Virus record (IMG/VR): IMGVR_UViG_3300004369_000679
Location: 1 to 49,365 of that record
DNA from: a virus
Reading direction: 5' to 3' (one strand)
Length of the DNA: 49,365 bases
Shown: piece after piece, positions 3,049-17,106 of the stretch
Numbering within the stretch: the first letter of the stretch is position 1
Layout: every line of letters starts with the position of its first letter
Translations under genes and position numbers: made by a program
The notes under the pieces: model-generated
What the model was told of the DNA's origin: nothing
What the model saw: only the letters and a program-made list of their open reading frames with translations
The model's database searches: none

Positions 3049-4188
3049 TTACTGGAATGCAACGTTGGCAAGTGTTACTGCATCAACGTAATCTGCCGCA
3101 TTACCAAGCGATGAAGCAGTATTTGTAAGTTCTTTATAACCATATCTGGTCATGAAACTTACTACTGGTTCAAATGTACTTGGATCCATTACTGGGCCTG
3201 TGCTCATTAATGGAATGTAAGGACAGTAGAATGCTGGAGCATCAGTTTCGCTTGATCCTTTGTAACCAACAAGAACTTTAGTTCCGTCAGCCGCATAGTT
3301 ATCAGCAAAAACTCTGATAGATCCGTTTAATGTACCAACAAATTTAGTATTTGTAGGTGCTTCAAATGATCCTTCAGTTGTTCTAGCAAATGTTGAAGTA
3401 GATGCACTTTGTAAAATTGTAAGTGCTTCTGGAGAAACAACAATGTAGTTACCAGCGCCACGTCTTGTTCTAGCCGCGATTCTGTTAGCCGCTCTGTTGA
3501 TCTCAATAGCCAATGCCGCGTGTCTATCACCGACATAAATGCTTGTACCACTTAAAGAACTAAAGTCTAAAGTTGTACCTGAACCTGCTAGAGTTCTTAG
3601 TGAACCGATAATTTCTTGGTCGATTTCAACTACGATCTCTTGTGCTAGTGCCTGCATAATTTCTGCTTCTACATCTACACCATGCATTGCTTCTGCATCT
3701 TGAGCCGCCTCAAAAGTCCATCTTGCTGATAACCTTCTGGTTTTCGCTTCAACAGTTTCTTTTAAGATTTGAATGCTCATTTTTCTACCTGCTTGTCCTT
3801 CAGCAGTTGCCGTAGCATCTGGAGAACCTGCATAAGTAGAAGCAAGTTTAAACGGACTTAAAGCCTCGTCACCTGCTGTTGCTCCACCACCAGTTTCAGA
3901 ATATCTGACTCTTAGTGTGTGGATTTGCCCTACTGGACCAGTCATAGGTTGAACACCTACTAGTTCGTTAGCAATAACAGAAGGCATAACCCTTCTAATT
4001 AGTGGTAACATTACTTTGTTTAAAGTTGCTACTGAACCTGCACCTGTGGCACCTGCTGTTGCGGCCTCTGACAAATGTCTCTTTGTATTTTCGAGGACAA
4101 CATCTAAAGAAGATTTTCTGTTTCCAGAAAGACCTTCTAATAAAGCGTCTTTAGTTGCAGACCAGTTGCTTTCAAATAAGTTTGCCAT
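3049..4188 (-). CDS. gp23: Major capsid protein (gp23)
   Basis: Forms the hexameric capsid lattice of the T4-like head. The 379-residue product begins MANLFESNWSATKDALLEGL and contains the typical gp23 stretch around LPLIRRVMPSVIANELVGVQ and PMTGPVGQIH, followed by a C-terminal GYKELT region. A Leu-Ser-Glu/Ala site at residues 39-42 fits the [LI]-x-E specificity of the gp21 prohead protease and would remove a 41-residue propeptide. The protein is clearly shorter than T4 gp23 (521 residues), probably through smaller loops and insertion domain. A GGAG ribosome site precedes the ATG. The gene is the last of the head operon, 14 nt after gp22, and is followed by a strong terminator. Confidence 0.93.
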   Translation of the reverse strand: MANLFESNWSATKDALLEGLSGNRKSSLDVVLENTKRHLSEAATAGATGAGSVATLNKVMLPLIRRVMPSVIANELVGVQPMTGPVGQIHTLRVRYSETGGGATAGDEALSPFKLASTYAGSPDATATAEGQAGRKMSIQILKETVEAKTRRLSARWTFEAAQDAEAMHGVDVEAEIMQALAQEIVVEIDQEIIGSLRTLAGSGTTLDFSSLSGTSIYVGDRHAALAIEINRAANRIAARTRRGAGNYIVVSPEALTILQSASTSTFARTTEGSFEAPTNTKFVGTLNGSIRVFADNYAADGTKVLVGYKGSSETDAPAFYCPYIPLMSTGPVMDPSTFEPVVSFMTRYGYKELTNTASSLGNAADYVDAVTLANVAFQ

Positions 4189-9834: not shown

Positions 9835-12483
9835 TTACTCGGAAGCCTTTATCTTTTGTGCAATTTTTCTAACTCTGTCATCTAGGCTTTTTGTATCTGT
9901 TCTCATGTTATCAAATCCACTAATTAAAACCTTTAACTGGTCTTTTAACACGTTTATTGATGAATCTTGGCTGGAAATCAGTTGTTGTTCATTGTAATAC
10001 TGGTTGCTGTCTGTAGAATATGTGTTATTGCTGATGTTTTGATTTGAACCTTCTAATTTGCTTGTAGCACCTTTCATTGCAGAGTTCATAGCCATTGTGG
10101 CTTTTGCTAATTCCATGATCTTGTTAGGGTCACTTCTTTCAGACATATTAATAACATTTTGTATTGGGGAATCTAGTCCTAGTAAATTTCCAAATCCTGC
10201 TCTCAAGGAATCTATAATACCTGGTGTCATTTCTGTAGCAAAAACACCCAGTGATGTGCCTAGTTCGTCTATGCCCATTGCCAACCCTGACATTTGCTCA
10301 TAACTGATACCAGCACCTGCAAGATCTTTAACTGCGGCTGTTACTGCCTGTGTTTTGGACTTCATTGCATCTGCTTCTGCATTTATTCTGGCAACCTTTC
10401 CGCCACTAAATGCTTCAACAACTTTTGCAATAGCATTTCCAACACCTTCTATGACTTTGGTAACACCCTCAAATACACTTTTAATTGCTTTTCCGATACT
10501 CTCAACTAAAGGTGCTAAAAATGACAATGCTTTAGCAAGTCCCATAATCGCCAGTGTAACCACTGCAACACCCAATGCAACCTGTGGTGTAGCAAATGCA
10601 CGGAATCCTGCCGCCATGCTCTTCATGGCTGGACCCATGGCTTTCATACCAGCCGCTATTCCGCCACCTGCGGCCGCACCTCCACCTCCTGTAGCCGCGG
10701 TTGCGGCCGTACCTGCAACTGTAGAAGTGCCACCTGCCAATGCATTAGTAACGACTTTAGATGCAAATGCCTTAGTAATACCGGCTAGAATACCTGTTGC
10801 GATGGCAGTAAAAGTCACGGCTCCAATGCCAAGCATAAGATATTTTCCAATAGTACCCCAAGGAATAAGGTCTCTTATAGCAACACCAAGTGAATCTCCC
10901 ACGTTGGACATTATTTCACCAAAAGACATTCCTTCTGTTGCTTCAACAAATGCTTCAAGATAACTGGAAGCATATACTATTGCACTATTAAATCTTCTAC
11001 CTACCTCTTGCCCAACTTCTTTAAAAACTTCTTTAACTGTTTTACCTTCTCTGCTGACTCCAAATAAGGTGGCAAACAACACGCTTAACAAGTTATTAAT
11101 CTGTTTGGTTAGATCTGACATGATATTAGTGACATCGCCCACAGCACTACCAAATCCATCCATGAACATATTGAAGAAACTACTAAATGTACCTTTTATT
11201 TTGTCAATCACAGTATTAAAAGCATTGAATCCTTTTTGCACGTTTTCTAATTCGTATCCAACCTTTTGTGCATTTTGAGTTGCCTGTTCAAATTGTTTAA
11301 TTGCTTTGGCCATTACCTGAGCATTCTGATCACCCGCCCTGGCTAATAGGAATACCCTTTGCTTTTCGTATTCTGTTAAGTTACCCAACTCATTCACAAA
11401 GGCCATTGTTGCAGTCATGCCATTTAATGACCCATCTTCAAATCCGCTTATAACGTCCTGCATGGCTCCACTAAGTTGTGGCAATACTGTAATAAATCCA
11501 AAGGCGGCATCACTGAATCCGATTGCTCCCATTGATGCGGCTTCCAGAATTGCCGCTGACAATTCGCCACCTGCATCTCCACCCATTGCTCTCATACCAG
11601 AAAGGAAACTTTGTATTTCTGGTAATACTCTGGAATTCATGGAATCACTAAATCTCAATGTAGATGCCATAAACATCTGATTGTTACCCAGTACTGATTC
11701 CACAAACTCTCTTTGCACCGTTGTGCTGATACCAAGAGCCTTGGAATAGGCCAGTTGTTGTCTAGACAGGTTACCTATGTCTGAAGCCATTTGTCTTCTC
11801 TGATTAATATCTAGAGCACCTATGTTTAATAATTGTGTTCTTAAAGCAAGTTCATCTCCAAACATGCCTATTGTATCTTGCAAACTCATACCTAAATCTA
11901 TACCATTATTTGTTAGTTGCAAAAATGCATCAACTAGACCTGGTGTGGCATTTTGCCCTAAAACTCTGACAGCCTGTGCATTCTCCAACATAAATCTGGA
12001 TGCCTTCTCTGTACTCATACCCAGTTCATTAAAGGCGGCTACGTTCATTGCAGTACTGCCTTCTAATGCTAAACCAGATTGGCTAAGAGAGTTAAATGTG
12101 TTTCCTAATTGATCAAATTTTGTAGTAATAAGTGTAGTTGCTGTACCCAGAGCAACCAGAGAAAGTCCCACAATTTTATCAATAGCACTACCAAATAATC
12201 CGCCGGCCTTTGCCATCACAGTTTGATAGTTTAGGCTAGACTGTGAAATATCGTCTAAAACGTCTGTAACGTCTTCTAGTTCTTCTTTGAATTCATCAAA
12301 AGTTTCATCTAGTTCGGGTATTCTGACATCAGTCAGTTTATTGAGTGCTTTGGTTAGACTTTCTGTGCTTTTTTCTGTTTTACCAATTAAGGCCTCTACC
12401 AATCTGTTCAGAGTGGCTTCTGTTGCCCATTGGGGCAGGGTTTGGCTATTGCCACCGCCATCTGTAAAATTAATATCTGCCAT
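9835..12483 (-). CDS. Probable tail tape measure protein (gp29-like role)
   Basis: Sets tail tube length and occupies the tube lumen. The 882-residue product has an N-terminal helical, charged part (residues 20-85), a long Ala/Gly/Met-rich helical body, a Gly/Ala-rich patch near 590-615, and two strongly hydrophobic stretches around residues 545-575 and 630-665. This is the usual architecture of tape measure proteins, whose hydrophobic parts enter the host membrane. It is longer than T4 gp29 (590 residues), consistent with a longer tail or extra domains. No enzymatic motif is seen. It has its own late promoter and AGGAAAAC ribosome site, and is divergent from gp26. The call rests on composition and context, not on clear similarity to gp29. 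Confidence 0.6.
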   Translation of the reverse strand: MADINFTDGGGNSQTLPQWATEATLNRLVEALIGKTEKSTESLTKALNKLTDVRIPELDETFDEFKEELEDVTDVLDDISQSSLNYQTVMAKAGGLFGSAIDKIVGLSLVALGTATTLITTKFDQLGNTFNSLSQSGLALEGSTAMNVAAFNELGMSTEKASRFMLENAQAVRVLGQNATPGLVDAFLQLTNNGIDLGMSLQDTIGMFGDELALRTQLLNIGALDINQRRQMASDIGNLSRQQLAYSKALGISTTVQREFVESVLGNNQMFMASTLRFSDSMNSRVLPEIQSFLSGMRAMGGDAGGELSAAILEAASMGAIGFSDAAFGFITVLPQLSGAMQDVISGFEDGSLNGMTATMAFVNELGNLTEYEKQRVFLLARAGDQNAQVMAKAIKQFEQATQNAQKVGYELENVQKGFNAFNTVIDKIKGTFSSFFNMFMDGFGSAVGDVTNIMSDLTKQINNLLSVLFATLFGVSREGKTVKEVFKEVGQEVGRRFNSAIVYASSYLEAFVEATEGMSFGEIMSNVGDSLGVAIRDLIPWGTIGKYLMLGIGAVTFTAIATGILAGITKAFASKVVTNALAGGTSTVAGTAATAATGGGGAAAGGGIAAGMKAMGPAMKSMAAGFRAFATPQVALGVAVVTLAIMGLAKALSFLAPLVESIGKAIKSVFEGVTKVIEGVGNAIAKVVEAFSGGKVARINAEADAMKSKTQAVTAAVKDLAGAGISYEQMSGLAMGIDELGTSLGVFATEMTPGIIDSLRAGFGNLLGLDSPIQNVINMSERSDPNKIMELAKATMAMNSAMKGATSKLEGSNQNISNNTYSTDSNQYYNEQQLISSQDSSINVLKDQLKVLISGFDNMRTDTKSLDDRVRKIAQKIKASE

Positions 12484-12519
12484 TAGATCAGTTTTCCTAT
12501 AAACACTAGTTTTAATGGT

Positions 12520-12527
12520 GATAAATA
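12520..12527 (+). promoter_or_regulatory. Late promoter motif GATAAATA for gp26
   Basis: GATAAATA on the plus strand, 62 nt upstream of the gp26 start. It lies back to back with the minus-strand copy at 12556-12563 in a 106-nt divergent intergenic region. Confidence 0.55.
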
Positions 12528-12555
12528 CTCAGGTATAGAGATAGTATCACTTGTA

Positions 12556-12563
12556 TATTTATC
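12556..12563 (-). promoter_or_regulatory. Late promoter motif GATAAATA for the tape measure gene
   Basis: GATAAATA on the minus strand, 72 nt upstream of the start at 12483. The two divergent copies overlap in their promoter zones, so the two transcripts would start within each other's upstream regions. Confidence 0.55.
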
Positions 12564-12589
12564 CTATTTATAAACAGGAGTTTTAATAG

Positions 12590-13441
12590 ATGTCAAATAC
12601 ACCAAACCCATTACGCGAATATTTTAGATCGCCCAAATTATATGTAAAATTGCCCACAGGCGGTAAATTTTACACAAAAGACATAGTGGAGTATCCAGAA
12701 AGTGGCGAACTTCCTGTTTTTCCCATGACTGCAAAAGACGAAGTTATGATGAAAAATCCAGATGCACTTTTAAACGGAGAAGCAATTACACAATTAATTA
12801 CCAGTTGCGTACCTAATGTAAAACAACCCAGAGAAATGATCACAAACGACGTTGATGTATTGCTGGTTGCAATTCAGGGTGCTACAAACGGTGACGATAT
12901 GGAAGTTTCAGCAACCTGTCCAGAGTGTCAGGAGACAGTTACAGGTGTAGCAAGTGTGGAAGGAGCATTAGAGACTATGGATGAACTAGATGAAATTTAT
13001 AGTGTTCCAACACCACAAGGTTTAACTATCGAATTAAAACCTTTTAAATACGCAAACACAATCAAGGCAGGTATAGCCAGTTTCCAGACAACCAGGAGCC
13101 TTCAAACATTGGCTGAAATGGAAAATGATATGGACAAACTGAAAGTTTTTAACCAAAATTTTAGAAAAATGGCTGACATGAATTATCAACTTATTTTAGA
13201 TGCCATACATTCTATTAAAATAGAAAAAGACTCAGAAAAACTTGTAATTACTGACCGAGACCACATTAGAGAATTTTTAGATAATTGTGAGGCAGGAATT
13301 GGTAAAGCAGTAGATCAATCAGTAGGCAAACTTAATCAAATTGGTATTAACAAAGATATGCAATTTGAATGTGAAAAGTGTGAAAAAATATTTACAGCAC
13401 CCATAGGATTTGACCCTGTAAATTTTTTCATGGCTTCCTAG
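12590..13441 (+). CDS. gp26: Baseplate hub / tail assembly protein gp26 with zinc ribbon
   Basis: The 283-residue product begins MSNTPNPLREYFRSPKLYVK and contains LPVFPMTAKDEV, the T4-like gp26 family pattern. Two CxxC pairs (Cys110/113 and Cys261/264) make a likely zinc ribbon. T4 gp26 is smaller (208 residues) and takes part in baseplate hub assembly. An AGGAG ribosome site precedes the ATG. The last codons contain the slippery heptamer A AAT TTT (13420-13426), followed by a stem-loop, so a fraction of ribosomes may shift to -1 and make a 357-residue extended form (see the feature at 13426). A hub/chaperone role is inferred from the family and from the divergent tape measure gene. Confidence 0.8.
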   Translation: MSNTPNPLREYFRSPKLYVKLPTGGKFYTKDIVEYPESGELPVFPMTAKDEVMMKNPDALLNGEAITQLITSCVPNVKQPREMITNDVDVLLVAIQGATNGDDMEVSATCPECQETVTGVASVEGALETMDELDEIYSVPTPQGLTIELKPFKYANTIKAGIASFQTTRSLQTLAEMENDMDKLKVFNQNFRKMADMNYQLILDAIHSIKIEKDSEKLVITDRDHIREFLDNCEAGIGKAVDQSVGKLNQIGINKDMQFECEKCEKIFTAPIGFDPVNFFMAS

Positions 13442-13483
13442 CTCGAGCCGAACCTGAAGAAATTGTCAGTTACCTAGAGAAGC
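13420..13483 (+). promoter_or_regulatory. Candidate -1 programmed ribosomal frameshift signal
   Basis: Slippery heptamer A AAT TTT (13420-13426, X XXY YYZ in the gp26 frame), a 6-nt spacer, then a stem formed by 13433-13441 and 13474-13483 (nine base pairs, one bulged A at 13478, 32-nt loop). The gp26 stop TAG is at 13439-13441, inside the stem. After slippage the frame stays open to 13662. Heptamer type, spacing and stem match the known requirements for -1 frameshifting. Confidence 0.7.
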
Positions 13484-13662
13484 TCAAAAAAGATTCCACG
13501 GCCATAACAACCAATATAATGGAAATGGTGATTTATTCTGAAGGTAAAATAAGTTATTCAGAAGCATGGACCCTAAGTTATGAAGAAAGAGTTCTCTTTA
13601 TGAAGACATTGAATAATTTTATCAAGAAGAAAAATGGACAACAAGGTACTGAAGAATTATAA
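13426..13662 (+). CDS. Frameshift-dependent C-terminal extension of gp26 (gp51 position)
   Basis: An open -1 frame of 78 codons that fills the gap between gp26 and the next gene. It has no ATG until its 40th codon and no ribosome site there. Its upstream limit is a TGA at 13411, only 9 nt before the slippery heptamer, so it can be reached in full only from gp26. The peptide is acidic and helical, beginning FHGFLARAEPEEIVSYLEKL and including YSEAWTLSYEERVLFMKTLN. It ends in TAATG shared with the nuclease gene. T4 encodes gp51, a baseplate assembly factor, near gp26; similarity to gp51 is not established here. A short internally started form is the alternative. Confidence 0.65.
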   Translation, partial: FHGFLARAEPEEIVSYLEKLKKDSTAITTNIMEMVIYSEGKISYSEAWTLSYEERVLFMKTLNNFIKKKNGQQGTEEL

Positions 13663-14084
13663 TGAGTTGGTATTATAAAGACAAACTTATAACAGAACTT
13701 CCAGAAGACTGCGAAGCATTTGTATATCTAATAACAAATTTAACCAACGATAAAAAATATATTGGCAAAAAATTAGCAAAATTTAAAACTACTAAACCTC
13801 CATTAAAAGGCAAAAAGAACAAAAGACGTGGTTACAAAGAAAGTGATTGGCGTACTTATTGGGGTAGTAGTGATCATTTAAATGCAGATGTTTTAGAACT
13901 AGGAGAAGATAAATTTCGTAGAGAAATATTATATTATTGTCCTAGCCGAGGAGTTGCAAGTTACTTAGAGGCTAGAGAGCAATTTGAAAGGCGAGTGCTT
14001 GAAACTGACGACTATTATAACGGAATCATCAACGTCAGAGTAGGTGGTTCAAAAATCCTTAAGGAAGCCTTAAAGACCTTATAA
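13662..14084 (+). CDS. GIY-YIG family endonuclease-like protein
   Basis: A 140-residue protein with a GIY-YIG core: FVY at residues 20-22 and YIG at 33-35, separated by the family's usual ten residues, followed by a basic patch (KGKKNKRRGYK), an Arg in SDWRTYWGSS, a Glu-rich helix (YLEAREQFERRVLE) and a final Asn in YYNGIINVR. The first motif is diverged (FVY instead of GIY). Such proteins, annotated as Seg-like homing endonucleases, recur near baseplate genes of marine T4-like phages. The ATG overlaps the previous stop (TAATG). It is followed by a 474-nt GC-rich non-coding stretch. It may be a homing nuclease or a domesticated nuclease; I cannot decide. Confidence 0.7.
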   Translation: MSWYYKDKLITELPEDCEAFVYLITNLTNDKKYIGKKLAKFKTTKPPLKGKKNKRRGYKESDWRTYWGSSDHLNADVLELGEDKFRREILYYCPSRGVASYLEAREQFERRVLETDDYYNGIINVRVGGSKILKEALKTL

Positions 14085-14536
14085 GTAGGTGTGTTAAAAC
14101 GCAAGTTAGAACACAATTCACATCAAGGCACACACATAGGACCATACACCACCCTACCGAGGCGAATAATATCGGGCTCTTCGACAATCCGGCAATGGAA
14201 ACACCCGGTGCGAGATTTAGAGATGTATGGCGTTTAAAGAGATACAGAAACACGACAAACAGTATTAAAAGATACAGGCTCTGAGAAAGCAACCTGTTAG
14301 CCACAAAACTAAACTCATCCAGGTAATGTGGTTCCCGTGAGATACCAGTGACGGTAGTGTAAGGGGGGATAAGGCTCACCGCCTCCTAGTAGCACCCGAG
14401 ATTGAGATGATGAAGCCATCACATGATGACTCATTTTTCGCCTGTATAGGTGAATTATGACTCCTCCATACATGATAACGAAAACACTTTAAGTCGAGTA
14501 AATGAGTTGAGTGAAACGAAACGAATTGACGAAGAC
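14085..14536 (+). ncRNA. Candidate structured non-coding RNA region, strand uncertain
   Basis: No supported gene lies in this stretch. Bases 14101-14400 are about 47% GC by my count (58% in 14341-14400), against roughly 30% in neighbouring coding lines. Several helices can be drawn: 14090-14095 with 14110-14115 (TGTGTT/AACACA), ACAGG/CCTGT near 14274-14297, TGATG/CATCA near 14407-14420 enclosed by TGAG/CTCA and followed by five T, CGCCT/AGGTG near 14439-14452, and TTTAAGTC (14488-14495) with GACTTAAA (14534-14541). A CGGT...GGGGGG...ACCG...CCTCC order near 14350-14385 could form a pseudoknot. I could not match it to tRNA, tmRNA, RNase P or a group I intron core. Plus-strand transcription from the gp26 operon seems likelier because the minus operon has its own terminator-like hairpin. 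Confidence 0.35.
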
Positions 14537-14537
14537 T

Positions 14538-14556
14538 TAAAAGGTCCGAAGGACCT
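14538..14556 (-). terminator. Possible terminator after the gp46 operon
   Basis: Six-base-pair hairpin AGGTCC/GGACCT (14542-14556) with a 3-nt loop, two nt beyond the stop at 14559. On the minus strand it is followed by only three to four T, so termination may be weak. It also sits at the end of the RNA candidate. Confidence 0.45.
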
Positions 14557-14558
14557 AA

Positions 14559-15350
14559 TTAATATGCTTTTATGGAATGTATAAAGCGATATTTCTTTAT
14601 TTCCGATAAATCTGGCTCGTGTGTTAATTTGCCTAACGGAATCTTTCCGATTGCCAGTCTTTTATCGCCTATTGTATAAGGCAGTTTGTTATGTATTTTT
14701 GCCAGGAATCTGTTTAAGTTTAACAGATACCTTTTACCTGCAAATACATCATCATCTAACCAACCAGCCAAATCATTTTTTAATATACTAGTAGGTTGTA
14801 TTTGGTCTTCAGGAATGTCTATATCGCCATCATTAAAGATAGCCATAATGTGTTTGCCAACATGTGGGTAATTCATATATAACCAGTTCTTTTTTAAATC
14901 AGGTGTGAATAAATCATAGTCCGTATCTTGCAGTGGCTCTCCAGGGTCATTCGTACATGTTATAAATCTTTTTTTGGCATGTCTGGAAATGTCTTCTAAG
15001 TGGTGAATCGTATAATTCAACTTAACTAAAAGATCGTTAAGTTTTTGAGACGGGTATTTTTCTTTTTGTAATTCGTAATGTGTAGAAGCAAAAATGTCGT
15101 GCAGGTGATTTAAGTCCATGGACTCTATAACAATTTCAGGCCTTAATAATTTTAATTGCTTAACACAATCCTTTAAAGAGTGTTCTACTTCCTGTTTGGT
15201 TTCACCAAAACCATAAAATCTGTCTGGACTAATTACAGGGTAATCTTGTTCTTTAAATCTTTCCCATATTCTGGTAGCAACTCTGTTATCGAAAAATTTG
15301 TAAGTTAAGGTGTATTCTGCATTTTCACCTAAATTAATATCAACCAACAT
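14559..15350 (-). CDS. Hypothetical protein, last gene of the gp55-47-46 operon
   Basis: A 263-residue soluble protein I do not recognise. It begins MLVDINLGENAEYTLTYKFF. It has a helical middle (DLLVKLNYTIHHLEDISRHA), an Asp-rich segment (DYDLFTPDLKKNW and IFNDGDIDIPEDQ) and a basic C-terminal third. There are no membrane segments, signal peptide or obvious catalytic motif. It overlaps the end of gp46 by 11 nt and so is translationally coupled to it. A link to DNA replication or recombination is suggested only by the operon. Confidence 0.75.
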   Translation of the reverse strand: MLVDINLGENAEYTLTYKFFDNRVATRIWERFKEQDYPVISPDRFYGFGETKQEVEHSLKDCVKQLKLLRPEIVIESMDLNHLHDIFASTHYELQKEKYPSQKLNDLLVKLNYTIHHLEDISRHAKKRFITCTNDPGEPLQDTDYDLFTPDLKKNWLYMNYPHVGKHIMAIFNDGDIDIPEDQIQPTSILKNDLAGWLDDDVFAGKRYLLNLNRFLAKIHNKLPYTIGDKRLAIGKIPLGKLTHEPDLSEIKKYRFIHSIKAY

Positions 15351-17106
15351 ATTCTGTATCTGTGTTATAACTTGTAAATCCGCCTTCTTTTACCACAGTT
15401 AATACATTATTAACACGTCCTATAAGTTCTTCTTTGTGTGAAATAAGCATGATATTTTTGCCTTGTTCTCTGTGCATTTTTTTCAGTACTGCCAGAGCAT
15501 TTTCCACACCCATACTGTCCATACCACTATCAACAAGTTCATCAATACACATCAGGTTCATTGGTCTGTTTAAACTTTCATACATGTCTCTGAATGCCCA
15601 ACTTAATCCAAGTATCAGTCTGTTACGTTCTCCACGACTTAAATTATCAAAATCCAAGTCTCTACCGTATTCAGTAATCTCGACACCTAAATCGTTACTG
15701 AATTTAACATCATGTGGTAGTCCAAGTTTCTCTAAATAATAACTTAGTCTGTGATTCATATATGCAATATTTTGGTCAATAATTTTCTTTCTGATAAAAC
15801 TGTCTTTGCTGGTTAGTAGTTTATATAAAAAGTCCTGATGTTCTTGTAAATGTGTCAGATCATTCATTAAATCAAAACTGATTTCCTGAATACCTGTTGT
15901 TCGCAAACCTTCTATTTGTTCAATGTATGGATTTAATTCCTCTACTTTGTCAGATAATTGACTGTGTATAGTTTCTAAATTGTGTTTGTGTTGTAGTGCT
16001 TCTTCCAATGTGCTGTAAGTTGTTACAGGCTCTTGTTCTATATCGCTAAACTCTTGCAGAGCGTCTGATACTTCCTGATGTCTTTCTGATAACTCTTTGT
16101 TGTACTCCTCTTCTGCAACAATTTTATCTCTTACTTCTTGTGTGTAAGTTTCGTGTGTATCCAAATGTGCAGTAGGTTGCTCACATGCAGGACATACACC
16201 TGCTAGAGCACTTTCTAAATCACTTTCCAATTGATTTAGTTTATCATGGCTTCTGTTTAAACTGGTTTCCAGCCTGTTTAATTCAGTATCCAGTGTTAGT
16301 TTAGTACTTCTTTTCTCTTTTAATTCTGCTTTTAATTTATGGTTATCTAACTCAATGTCTATATCAAGTTTTTCCATATCCACTATTGCTGTGCCCAGCT
16401 CAGTTAGTTTATTTTCCTTGTTAATTTCCCAAGCCTTACTGCGACTTTCTATCTCTTGTATGTTTTTATCTATACGTTTATTGCTTTCTTCTACAGCATT
16501 TATACGGATTTCTTCCTCTTTTATACTGTCTCTGGTGTGTTTTTGCCTTTCTTTTAACACTTCTGCTTTAAGAGACAACTCTGTTATACCCAGTAATTGC
16601 TCTATCATGTCCTTTTGATCGTTGTTTTTCATGGCAAGGAAAGGCTCAGTATAAGTGTTTAATGCAATTAAATGCTTAAACATATTATGAGGGAAACCAA
16701 TAATTTTTTCTATCTCTTTTTGTGTTTCTCTGCTATCGCCTTGTTGCTCTTCGCTAATTGCGTCTTCTCCATCAATAAAAAACTTTAATACATTGGGTCT
16801 TCTGCCACGTTCTATTCTGTATTTTTTACCCTGTATTTCAAACTCCACAGTGGTCATCATGCCCTTGCCATTTGTTTTGTTTATAAGGTTGTCTTTTCTG
16901 ATATTTGTAAGAGCTTCGCCATATAAGGCATAACTAAGAGCATTGATAATTGTAGTTTTACCTGTGCCGTTCCTACTACCATCTCCTCCCATATCCAGAT
17001 TATGACCTAATACAAGAGTAAGTTGGCAGTTATCAAAATTTACTGCCTGTGTGTTGTTGCCAACACTCATAAAATTCTTTGCTGAAACGTTCTTAATTTG
17101 TAACAT
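15340..17106 (-). CDS. gp46: Recombination endonuclease subunit gp46 (Rad50/SbcC-like ATPase)
   Basis: ATPase partner of gp47, resecting DNA ends for recombination-dependent replication. The 588-residue product has the Rad50 layout: N-terminal P-loop SRNGTGKTT (44-52), two long coiled-coil arms around a zinc hook CPAC near residue 304, the ABC signature LSRGERN near 487, Walker B LMCIDE near 517, and an ISHKEE His-switch near the end. The first Gly of the usual GxNGxGK loop is Ser44. Length is close to T4 gp46 (560 residues). The start overlaps the gp47 stop (TAATG). Confidence 0.95.
   Translation of the reverse strand: MLQIKNVSAKNFMSVGNNTQAVNFDNCQLTLVLGHNLDMGGDGSRNGTGKTTIINALSYALYGEALTNIRKDNLINKTNGKGMMTTVEFEIQGKKYRIERGRRPNVLKFFIDGEDAISEEQQGDSRETQKEIEKIIGFPHNMFKHLIALNTYTEPFLAMKNNDQKDMIEQLLGITELSLKAEVLKERQKHTRDSIKEEEIRINAVEESNKRIDKNIQEIESRSKAWEINKENKLTELGTAIVDMEKLDIDIELDNHKLKAELKEKRSTKLTLDTELNRLETSLNRSHDKLNQLESDLESALAGVCPACEQPTAHLDTHETYTQEVRDKIVAEEEYNKELSERHQEVSDALQEFSDIEQEPVTTYSTLEEALQHKHNLETIHSQLSDKVEELNPYIEQIEGLRTTGIQEISFDLMNDLTHLQEHQDFLYKLLTSKDSFIRKKIIDQNIAYMNHRLSYYLEKLGLPHDVKFSNDLGVEITEYGRDLDFDNLSRGERNRLILGLSWAFRDMYESLNRPMNLMCIDELVDSGMDSMGVENALAVLKKMHREQGKNIMLISHKEELIGRVNNVLTVVKEGGFTSYNTDTEYVG

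Follow-up and report, generated by a model that had tools for sequence, protein, structure and literature searches.

We identified a gp26-like gene in a phage genome that very probably encodes a pair of tail assembly chaperone (TAC) proteins, a short form (TAC-N) and a C-terminally extended form (TAC-NC), the second arising by −1 ribosomal slippage on the heptamer U UUU UUC at positions 13423–13429. The stretch of DNA analysed, referred to here as the window, is IMG/VR virus record IMGVR_UViG_3300004369_000679 at its full length of 49,365 bases. By comparison, the slip site, its phase and the open −1 frame are conserved, related phages carry either one copy of the domain or two, and the extension appears to be similar to the C-terminus of gp51; the occurrence of slippage, its rate and the chaperone role of the products are inferred. 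The features discussed below are as follows.

9835–12483, minus strand: 882-residue neighbour in divergent orientation, possibly a tape measure protein; uncertain, with a weak PHROG match
12590–13441, plus strand: gp26-like ORF, the putative short chaperone form (TAC-N); 283 residues, PF12322, phrog_150
13411–13413, plus strand: TGA that closes the −1 frame upstream, by direct reading
13420–13426, plus strand: overlapping heptamer A AAT TTT in the 0-frame phase; in the window and some relatives only
13423–13429, plus strand: T TTT TTC heptamer, in phase with gp26, putative conserved slip site; in 57 of 57 evaluable jumbo-type and 79 of 80 cyanophage-type loci
13429–13662, plus strand: −1 frame extension (TAC-C domain), predicted to be helical; 77 codons plus TAA
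13433–13441, plus strand: 5′ arm of a 9-bp bulged stem, including the gp26 stop
13439–13441, plus strand: gp26 stop TAG, three codons past the slip site (1–11 codons in relatives)
13474–13483, plus strand: 3′ arm of the 9-bp bulged stem, with a bulged A at 13478
13662–14084, plus strand: SegE-like GIY-YIG endonuclease ORF; PF19835, E 1.5e-33; its ATG lies in TAATG

The gp26 frame ends with the codons CCT GTA AAT TTT TTC ATG GCT TCC TAG, and direct reading places the stop codon at 13439–13441. A preliminary description of this DNA, made from the sequence alone, had reported an in-phase A AAT TTT at the end of gp26 and taken it as the slip site. The heptamer is present in phase at 13420–13426, but the conserved site is the overlapping U UUU UUC. 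A −1 slip at either heptamer gives an identical predicted product of 357 residues. The −1 frame stays open down to the TAA at 13660–13662, a length of 78 codons when counted from A AAT TTT and 77 from U UUU UUC; re-reading bore out the upstream TGA, the open length, the product size and the TAATG shared with the next ORF, all as first described. A AAT TTT occurs in the window and in relatives L001–L006, L155, L156 and L158, and is missing from the other junctions compared. Slippage at A AAT TTT alone as the main site was rejected because distant relatives lack it; this heptamer may contribute to slippage and is not required for it. Among the 33 window ORFs of at least 100 residues, only gp26 has an X XXY YYZ heptamer that is in phase, lies within the final 45 nt and is followed by a −1 frame passing the stop. 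One other ORF carries such a heptamer (AAATTTG), and its −1 frame closes before the stop.

We collected jumbo-phage-type relatives by gp26 similarity alone, disregarding the heptamer. Sixty-two phage records matched gp26, and 16 of these, all named phages, were examined. In the first set of relatives, the heptamer was in phase and the −1 frame open in 24 of 24 cases, as T TTT TTC in 22 and T TTT TTT in two. The jumbo-type count covers 57 evaluable loci, or 49 distinct junctions once eight duplicates are removed; L148, which runs off its contig, was excluded, and with the extensions of L137 and L158 truncated, 47 distinct junctions have a complete −1 frame. An in-phase U UUU UUY followed by an open −1 frame is present in all 57 loci. 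Loss of the heptamer in close relatives that keep the −1 coding sequence, which had been named as an observation that would speak against frameshifting, was not seen among these 57 loci. Across these loci the gp26 stop lies 1, 3, 4, 6, 10 or 11 codons past the slip site, and the extension measures 69–80 codons in the 47 distinct complete cases.

Codon choice at the junction is similarly constrained. In 22 loci the residue preceding the two phenylalanines is variable (N, S, H, D, R, Y or A), its codon always ends in T, and the first phenylalanine codon is TTT throughout. From local codon use, the probability product of these two regularities comes to about 1e-7 when 14 diverse loci are counted and to 1e-10 with all 22 included, values that serve as a scale rather than a true P value because the loci are related. 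In the window and its four near relatives (five sequences), the overlap codons are frozen: eight of nine amino-acid-invariant columns are codon-identical in the last 12 codons, compared with 37 of 145 elsewhere (Fisher P 2.3e-4).

These data bear on three other explanations. The −1 frame could be a separate small gene, with its own start or translated by re-initiation after the gp26 stop. Many relatives do have an ATG, GTG or TTG a few codons from the slip site, databases often annotate short separate ORFs there, and two loci of a sister lineage (L170 and L174) carry an ATG directly behind the gp26 stop. In the window, however, the first ATG, GTG or TTG of the −1 frame is 80 nt 3′ of the first base of the stop, with no Shine-Dalgarno-like GGAG, GAGG, AGGA or AGGG 5–15 nt before it, in keeping with the original statement that the frame has no start with a ribosome site. 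The extension of phage PA5oct contains no ATG, GTG or TTG at all, and none of the 49 distinct jumbo-type junctions has a Shine-Dalgarno-like sequence before its first possible start, the only start considered. A separate gene would also leave the conserved heptamer, its phase and the frozen codons unexplained, and we regard this explanation as highly unlikely. A separately started gene in relatives had likewise been listed as evidence that would count against frameshifting; judged by the first possible start, none appears among the jumbo-type loci, but distant lineages differ, in that the extension domain lies inside a full gp51 gene (T4, KP15) or behind an ATG (L170, L174).

Alternatively, RNA polymerase could slip on the T run, so that mRNA with one extra U would encode the fusion. 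The run of six T is conserved and is longer in L016 and L021; it nonetheless remains TTTTTTC in all but two of the 57 evaluable loci, showing no growth there, and a conserved TTTTTTC suits tandem tRNA slippage. Bacterial polymerase slippage usually requires longer runs. Polymerase slippage is therefore, in our judgement, extremely improbable. Finally, the overlap might be incidental, a functionless remnant of a broken gp26–gp51 fusion, given that a true fusion gene exists in relatives (T4 gp51) and that one cyanophage-type locus, L111, is also fused. Against this, 49 distinct junctions from phages of different hosts share the heptamer, the phase and the open frame, and the length of the extension is maintained, which makes an incidental overlap barely credible. 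The features seen at these junctions are those of programmed −1 frameshifting: a heptamer in phase, an open −1 frame whose first possible start has no Shine-Dalgarno-like sequence, and a conserved site behind which the 0-frame stop varies in position.

The preliminary description had also placed a 9-bp stem with one bulge, holding the gp26 stop, downstream of the slip site. This stem, in which GCUUCCUAG (13433–13441) pairs with CUAG-A-GAAGC (13474–13483), is part of the minimum-energy fold of 13430–13490 (−12.3 kcal/mol), but the fold has a z score of only −0.78, with 35 of 200 shuffles equally good, and the stem is kept in near relatives only. In four near relatives the z scores are −2.15 to −2.88, and the shorter piece 13430–13480 forms a different hairpin (z 0.04). 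A 10-pair version is paired in 50 of 50 cells across five distinct near sequences. Nine of its 10 pairs never vary, hence the lack of covariation: no two-sided pair change occurs in this stem across the five sequences. A short competing hairpin at 13432–13449, six pairs of which are kept in five distinct near sequences, also shows no two-sided change and was set aside. Single folds of the 50 nt behind the slip site at 23 loci contain no common stem, although PA5oct (z −3.4) and Atu_ph07 (z −3.1) each form their own strong hairpins. It is plausible that the stem acts as a local helper of slippage rather than as a defining part of the signal.

We compared the junction with the T4 genes 26 and 51, both of whose products match PF12322. 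The window gp26 matches this family (T4_baseplate) at 54.5 bits (E 1.6e-14; Pfam cut-off 24.5), and its PHROG match, phrog_150, is a baseplate hub family. In whole-record searches of 24 named phages, T4 and KP15 each had two PF12322 copies and 21 phages a single one, with none over threshold in SCTP-2, whose gp26 gene was located by tblastn. No in-phase heptamer is present in the last 100 nt of either T4 gp26 or T4 gp51. Copy number and frameshift site are therefore complementary in this sample, T4 and KP15 having two copies and the frameshifting phages one, with the exception of GG32.

T4 gp51 consists of a PF12322 domain and a C-terminal region akin to the window extension, but it is encoded by a whole, separate gene. 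In hhalign comparisons, the cyanophage-type extension, a set that also includes V09, Moby and RL2RES, matched the gp51 C-terminus with 96.6% probability (E 5e-10, for one pair). For the jumbo extension the probability was 36% (E 4e-4, likewise for one pair), which is weak, but its score of 23.5 exceeded that of every one of 100 column-shuffled controls (maximum 17.6); between the jumbo and cyanophage-type extensions the probability was 33% and the score 22.6 (controls, maximum 16.5). Scored against the single T4 gp51 sequence, the jumbo extension profile HMM gave 0.8 bits, less than the profile–profile comparison. L123, part of the first profile comparison, was removed from the final one because its gp51 frame is broken. 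The product is best read as a tail assembly chaperone pair whose extension resembles the gp51 C-terminus, T4 and its near relatives presumably making the same two forms from genes 26 and 51.

Earlier literature on gp51 touches on the same region. Passages of PMC3037559 give cyanophage gp51 as about 20% of full length and describe the gp51 of cyanophages and marine vibriophages as without the first ~200 residues, the C-terminal region being common. A 2010 review (PMC3004832) names gp26 and gp51 as hub assembly chaperones and gp51 as an essential hub assembly protein of unknown function at that date. In one deposited record, a relative of gp51 goes under the name “tape measure protein assembly chaperone”.

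To extend the comparison, IMG/VR loci matching P-SSM7 gp26 were taken as a cyanophage-type set, comprising the best 80 of at least 600 matches. TTTTTTC is in phase in 79 of these best 80 loci, starting 10 nt before the stop in 78, and the −1 frame continues for 57–66 codons past the stop in 76 loci and runs off the contig in three. What is annotated in cyanophages as “gp51”, after gp26, is a 31-residue ORF beginning within this −1 frame. In the eightieth locus (L111, 1501–2394), gp26 and the extension lie in one frame, on a 236-kb contig with one PF12322 match; the in-frame fusion could be real or an assembly error. Nine further loci (L025–L033) were chosen by hand and counted separately. T TTT TTC lies 10 nt before the stop in ACG-2014g, P-SSM7, V09 (KVP40 type) and Moby, T TTT TTG at the same distance in RL2RES, and T TTT TTC 70 nt before it in LR756511. 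GG32, LR756508 and KP15, three of the nine, have no such heptamer. Salmonella phage GG32 (L028, 2930–3115) has one PF12322 copy and a −1 frame extension with no X XXY YYZ; the nearest candidate is G ATT TTC, which we take to be reminiscent of the T7 gene 10 sequence G GUU UUC.

LR756508 served as the query for a sister lineage of 20 loci, 18 of which were analysed, with two short matches (L177 and L178) omitted. In 14 of the 18 (L159–L169 and L171–L173), TTC TTT TGG CCT GA precedes an extension in the +1 frame, and L175 and L176 have a similar junction with TTT TTT TGG. LR756508 itself (L030, near 3200–3245) has a +1 frame extension behind a different junction, AAC TTT CTA TTC; this extension scores 17.7 bits against the jumbo extension profile. 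From these junctions, the sister lineage appears to use a +1 shift, or a −2 slip or some other route. The remaining two loci, L170 and L174, have the extension in the −1 frame, in an arrangement that looks as if it were separately started; the L170 record has no PF12322 match. We consider it conceivable, although somewhat short of probable, that the two forms arise in several ways across the PF12322 family and its distant relatives: by −1 shift at U UUU UUC in the jumbo, cyanophage and vibriophage types, by +1 shift in the sister lineage, from paralogues in T4 and KP15, and perhaps by separate start or non-canonical slip in L170, L174 and GG32. If so, the ratio of the forms, and not the mechanism, would be what evolution retains.

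At the protein level, two CxxC pairs of gp26 (C110, C113, C261 and C264) are unchanged in 17 aligned proteins, which fits the zinc ribbon proposed in the preliminary description. The acidic helical tail proposed there fared less evenly: AlphaFold2 predicts helices at residues 2–8, 11–38, 45–49 and 53–70 of the extension, but its charge is only mildly acidic (12 acidic and 10 basic residues, counted by hand). The extension model has a mean pLDDT of 80.6, the five models ranging from 57.5 to 80.6, and the gp26 model is good (mean pLDDT 84.0). The best match of the latter, at E 1.3e-26, is a predicted T4-like baseplate hub assembly protein. A PDB structure search with the gp26 and extension models returned nothing at E <= 0.001, and for neither model did it find a likeness to the solved lambda or HK97 (gp13) chaperones; by sequence, one PDB chain was returned at E 0.98. 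Among viral models, the gp26 fold search also reaches larger proteins of 384–548 residues in further giant phages (phiRSL1, RP12 and Erwinia Special G). The predicted folds hint at a chaperone family extending beyond PF12322.

We propose the following mechanism for the window. Most ribosomes would terminate at the TAG at 13439–13441 and release the 283-residue gp26 (TAC-N), while a minority would slip one base back on U UUU UUC, perhaps aided in the window's lineage by the downstream stem. Slipped ribosomes would produce the 357-residue TAC-NC, with the first 280 residues in common and a 77-residue helical C-terminal domain. The analogy with lambda gpG/gpGT suggests that, as the tail is assembled, TAC-N would coat the tape measure protein and TAC-NC would bring in tail-tube subunits.

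Comparison (57 of 57 loci) strongly supports both the −1 frameshift and the lambda G/GT parallel first suggested in the preliminary description. According to a passage in PMC5009743, lambda makes a short protein and a rare C-terminally extended one by a −1 slip near the 3′ end; the likeness lies in this layout, a short and a C-terminally extended form of one domain, known here at the level of genes. The systems differ in that Pfam and PHROG scans of the window gave no match to a lambda protein family, and in that the window's possible tape measure gene is on the opposite strand. The lambda slip heptamer, G GGA AAG, is also unlike that of the window.

A further precedent concerns the T4-like group, whose TAC genes Vladimirov, Gautam and Davidson (Virology 2022, 566:9–15) are said to have identified; frameshifting reportedly appears conserved in several T4-like groups, and T4 reportedly uses genes 26 and 51. 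Citing that work, a passage of PMC10885494 states that some T4-like phages encode a short gene together with a longer, fused one, and a passage of PMC12846349 that poly-T slip signals are known in T4-like TAC-N genes. The resemblance to the window is one of family: the same gp26/gp51 proteins, in a short and an extended form made by frameshift or from two genes. PMC12846349 further describes a TAC −1 frameshift at GTTTTT in Pakpunavirus Adele and its relatives. As in the window, TAC-N in these phages ends with a conserved poly-T slip site, and the frame downstream is routinely annotated as hypothetical, but the phages belong to another group of myoviruses and use GTTTTT instead of TTTTTTC.

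Because of these papers (Vladimirov et al.; PMC10885494; PMC12846349), the frameshifted T4-like chaperone is an already known kind, and the frameshift principle itself is already published; the window and its jumbo relatives are unannotated members of that kind. A literature search that covered few subscription journals yielded no paper on frameshifted tail assembly chaperones in jumbo phages, which is not evidence of novelty, and the word frameshift is missing from three jumbo-phage papers, on CBB, phAPEC6 and Atu_ph07. In 15 annotated jumbo-phage records, the extension is omitted (PA5oct and RaK2) or given as a short hypothetical protein or predicted ORF, and a joined gp26–extension feature is flagged in none of the 15. 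The present assignment corrects the annotation of the extension in such records, suggests for T4 gp51 a concrete role that can be tested, that of the long chaperone form, and makes available many natural variants for measuring how the chaperone ratio affects tail assembly.

The surroundings of gp26 were examined as well. The 882-residue neighbour, which the preliminary description had called the likely tape measure, has a weak match to a tape-measure PHROG (E 5.9e-5). Among eight jumbo neighbours scanned, however, six fall in phrog_14121, a family of virion structural proteins in the head and packaging category; the other two match nothing. BF alone among the eight has weak tape-measure matches besides. 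A profile of 12 neighbours recognizes the upstream proteins of Vibrio 2.275.O (2.9e-39) and SCTP-2 (5.2e-14), but reaches T4 gp29 only at 0.14. Atu_ph07 has no such neighbour gene beside gp26, and its tape measure is named as gp701 in a passage of PMC6102473. That the 882-residue neighbour is the tape measure is possible, on matches that are weak and inconsistent among relatives.

Downstream, about 470 bases (14085–14558) hold no convincing ORF; an Rfam scan of 12000–15400 found nothing at E <= 0.5, and no tRNA was found in 14085–14558. The extension is followed directly by the SegE-like endonuclease ORF; its ATG and the stop of the −1 frame overlap in TAATG (13660–13664), as they also do in L001, L002, L003, L005 and L006. 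Of the ribosomes translating gp26, only those that frameshift would reach TAATG, and translation of the endonuclease may therefore be tied to frameshifting in the window's own lineage. The best PHROG match of the endonuclease ORF is phrog_447, labelled NAD synthetase, a label that looks wrong.
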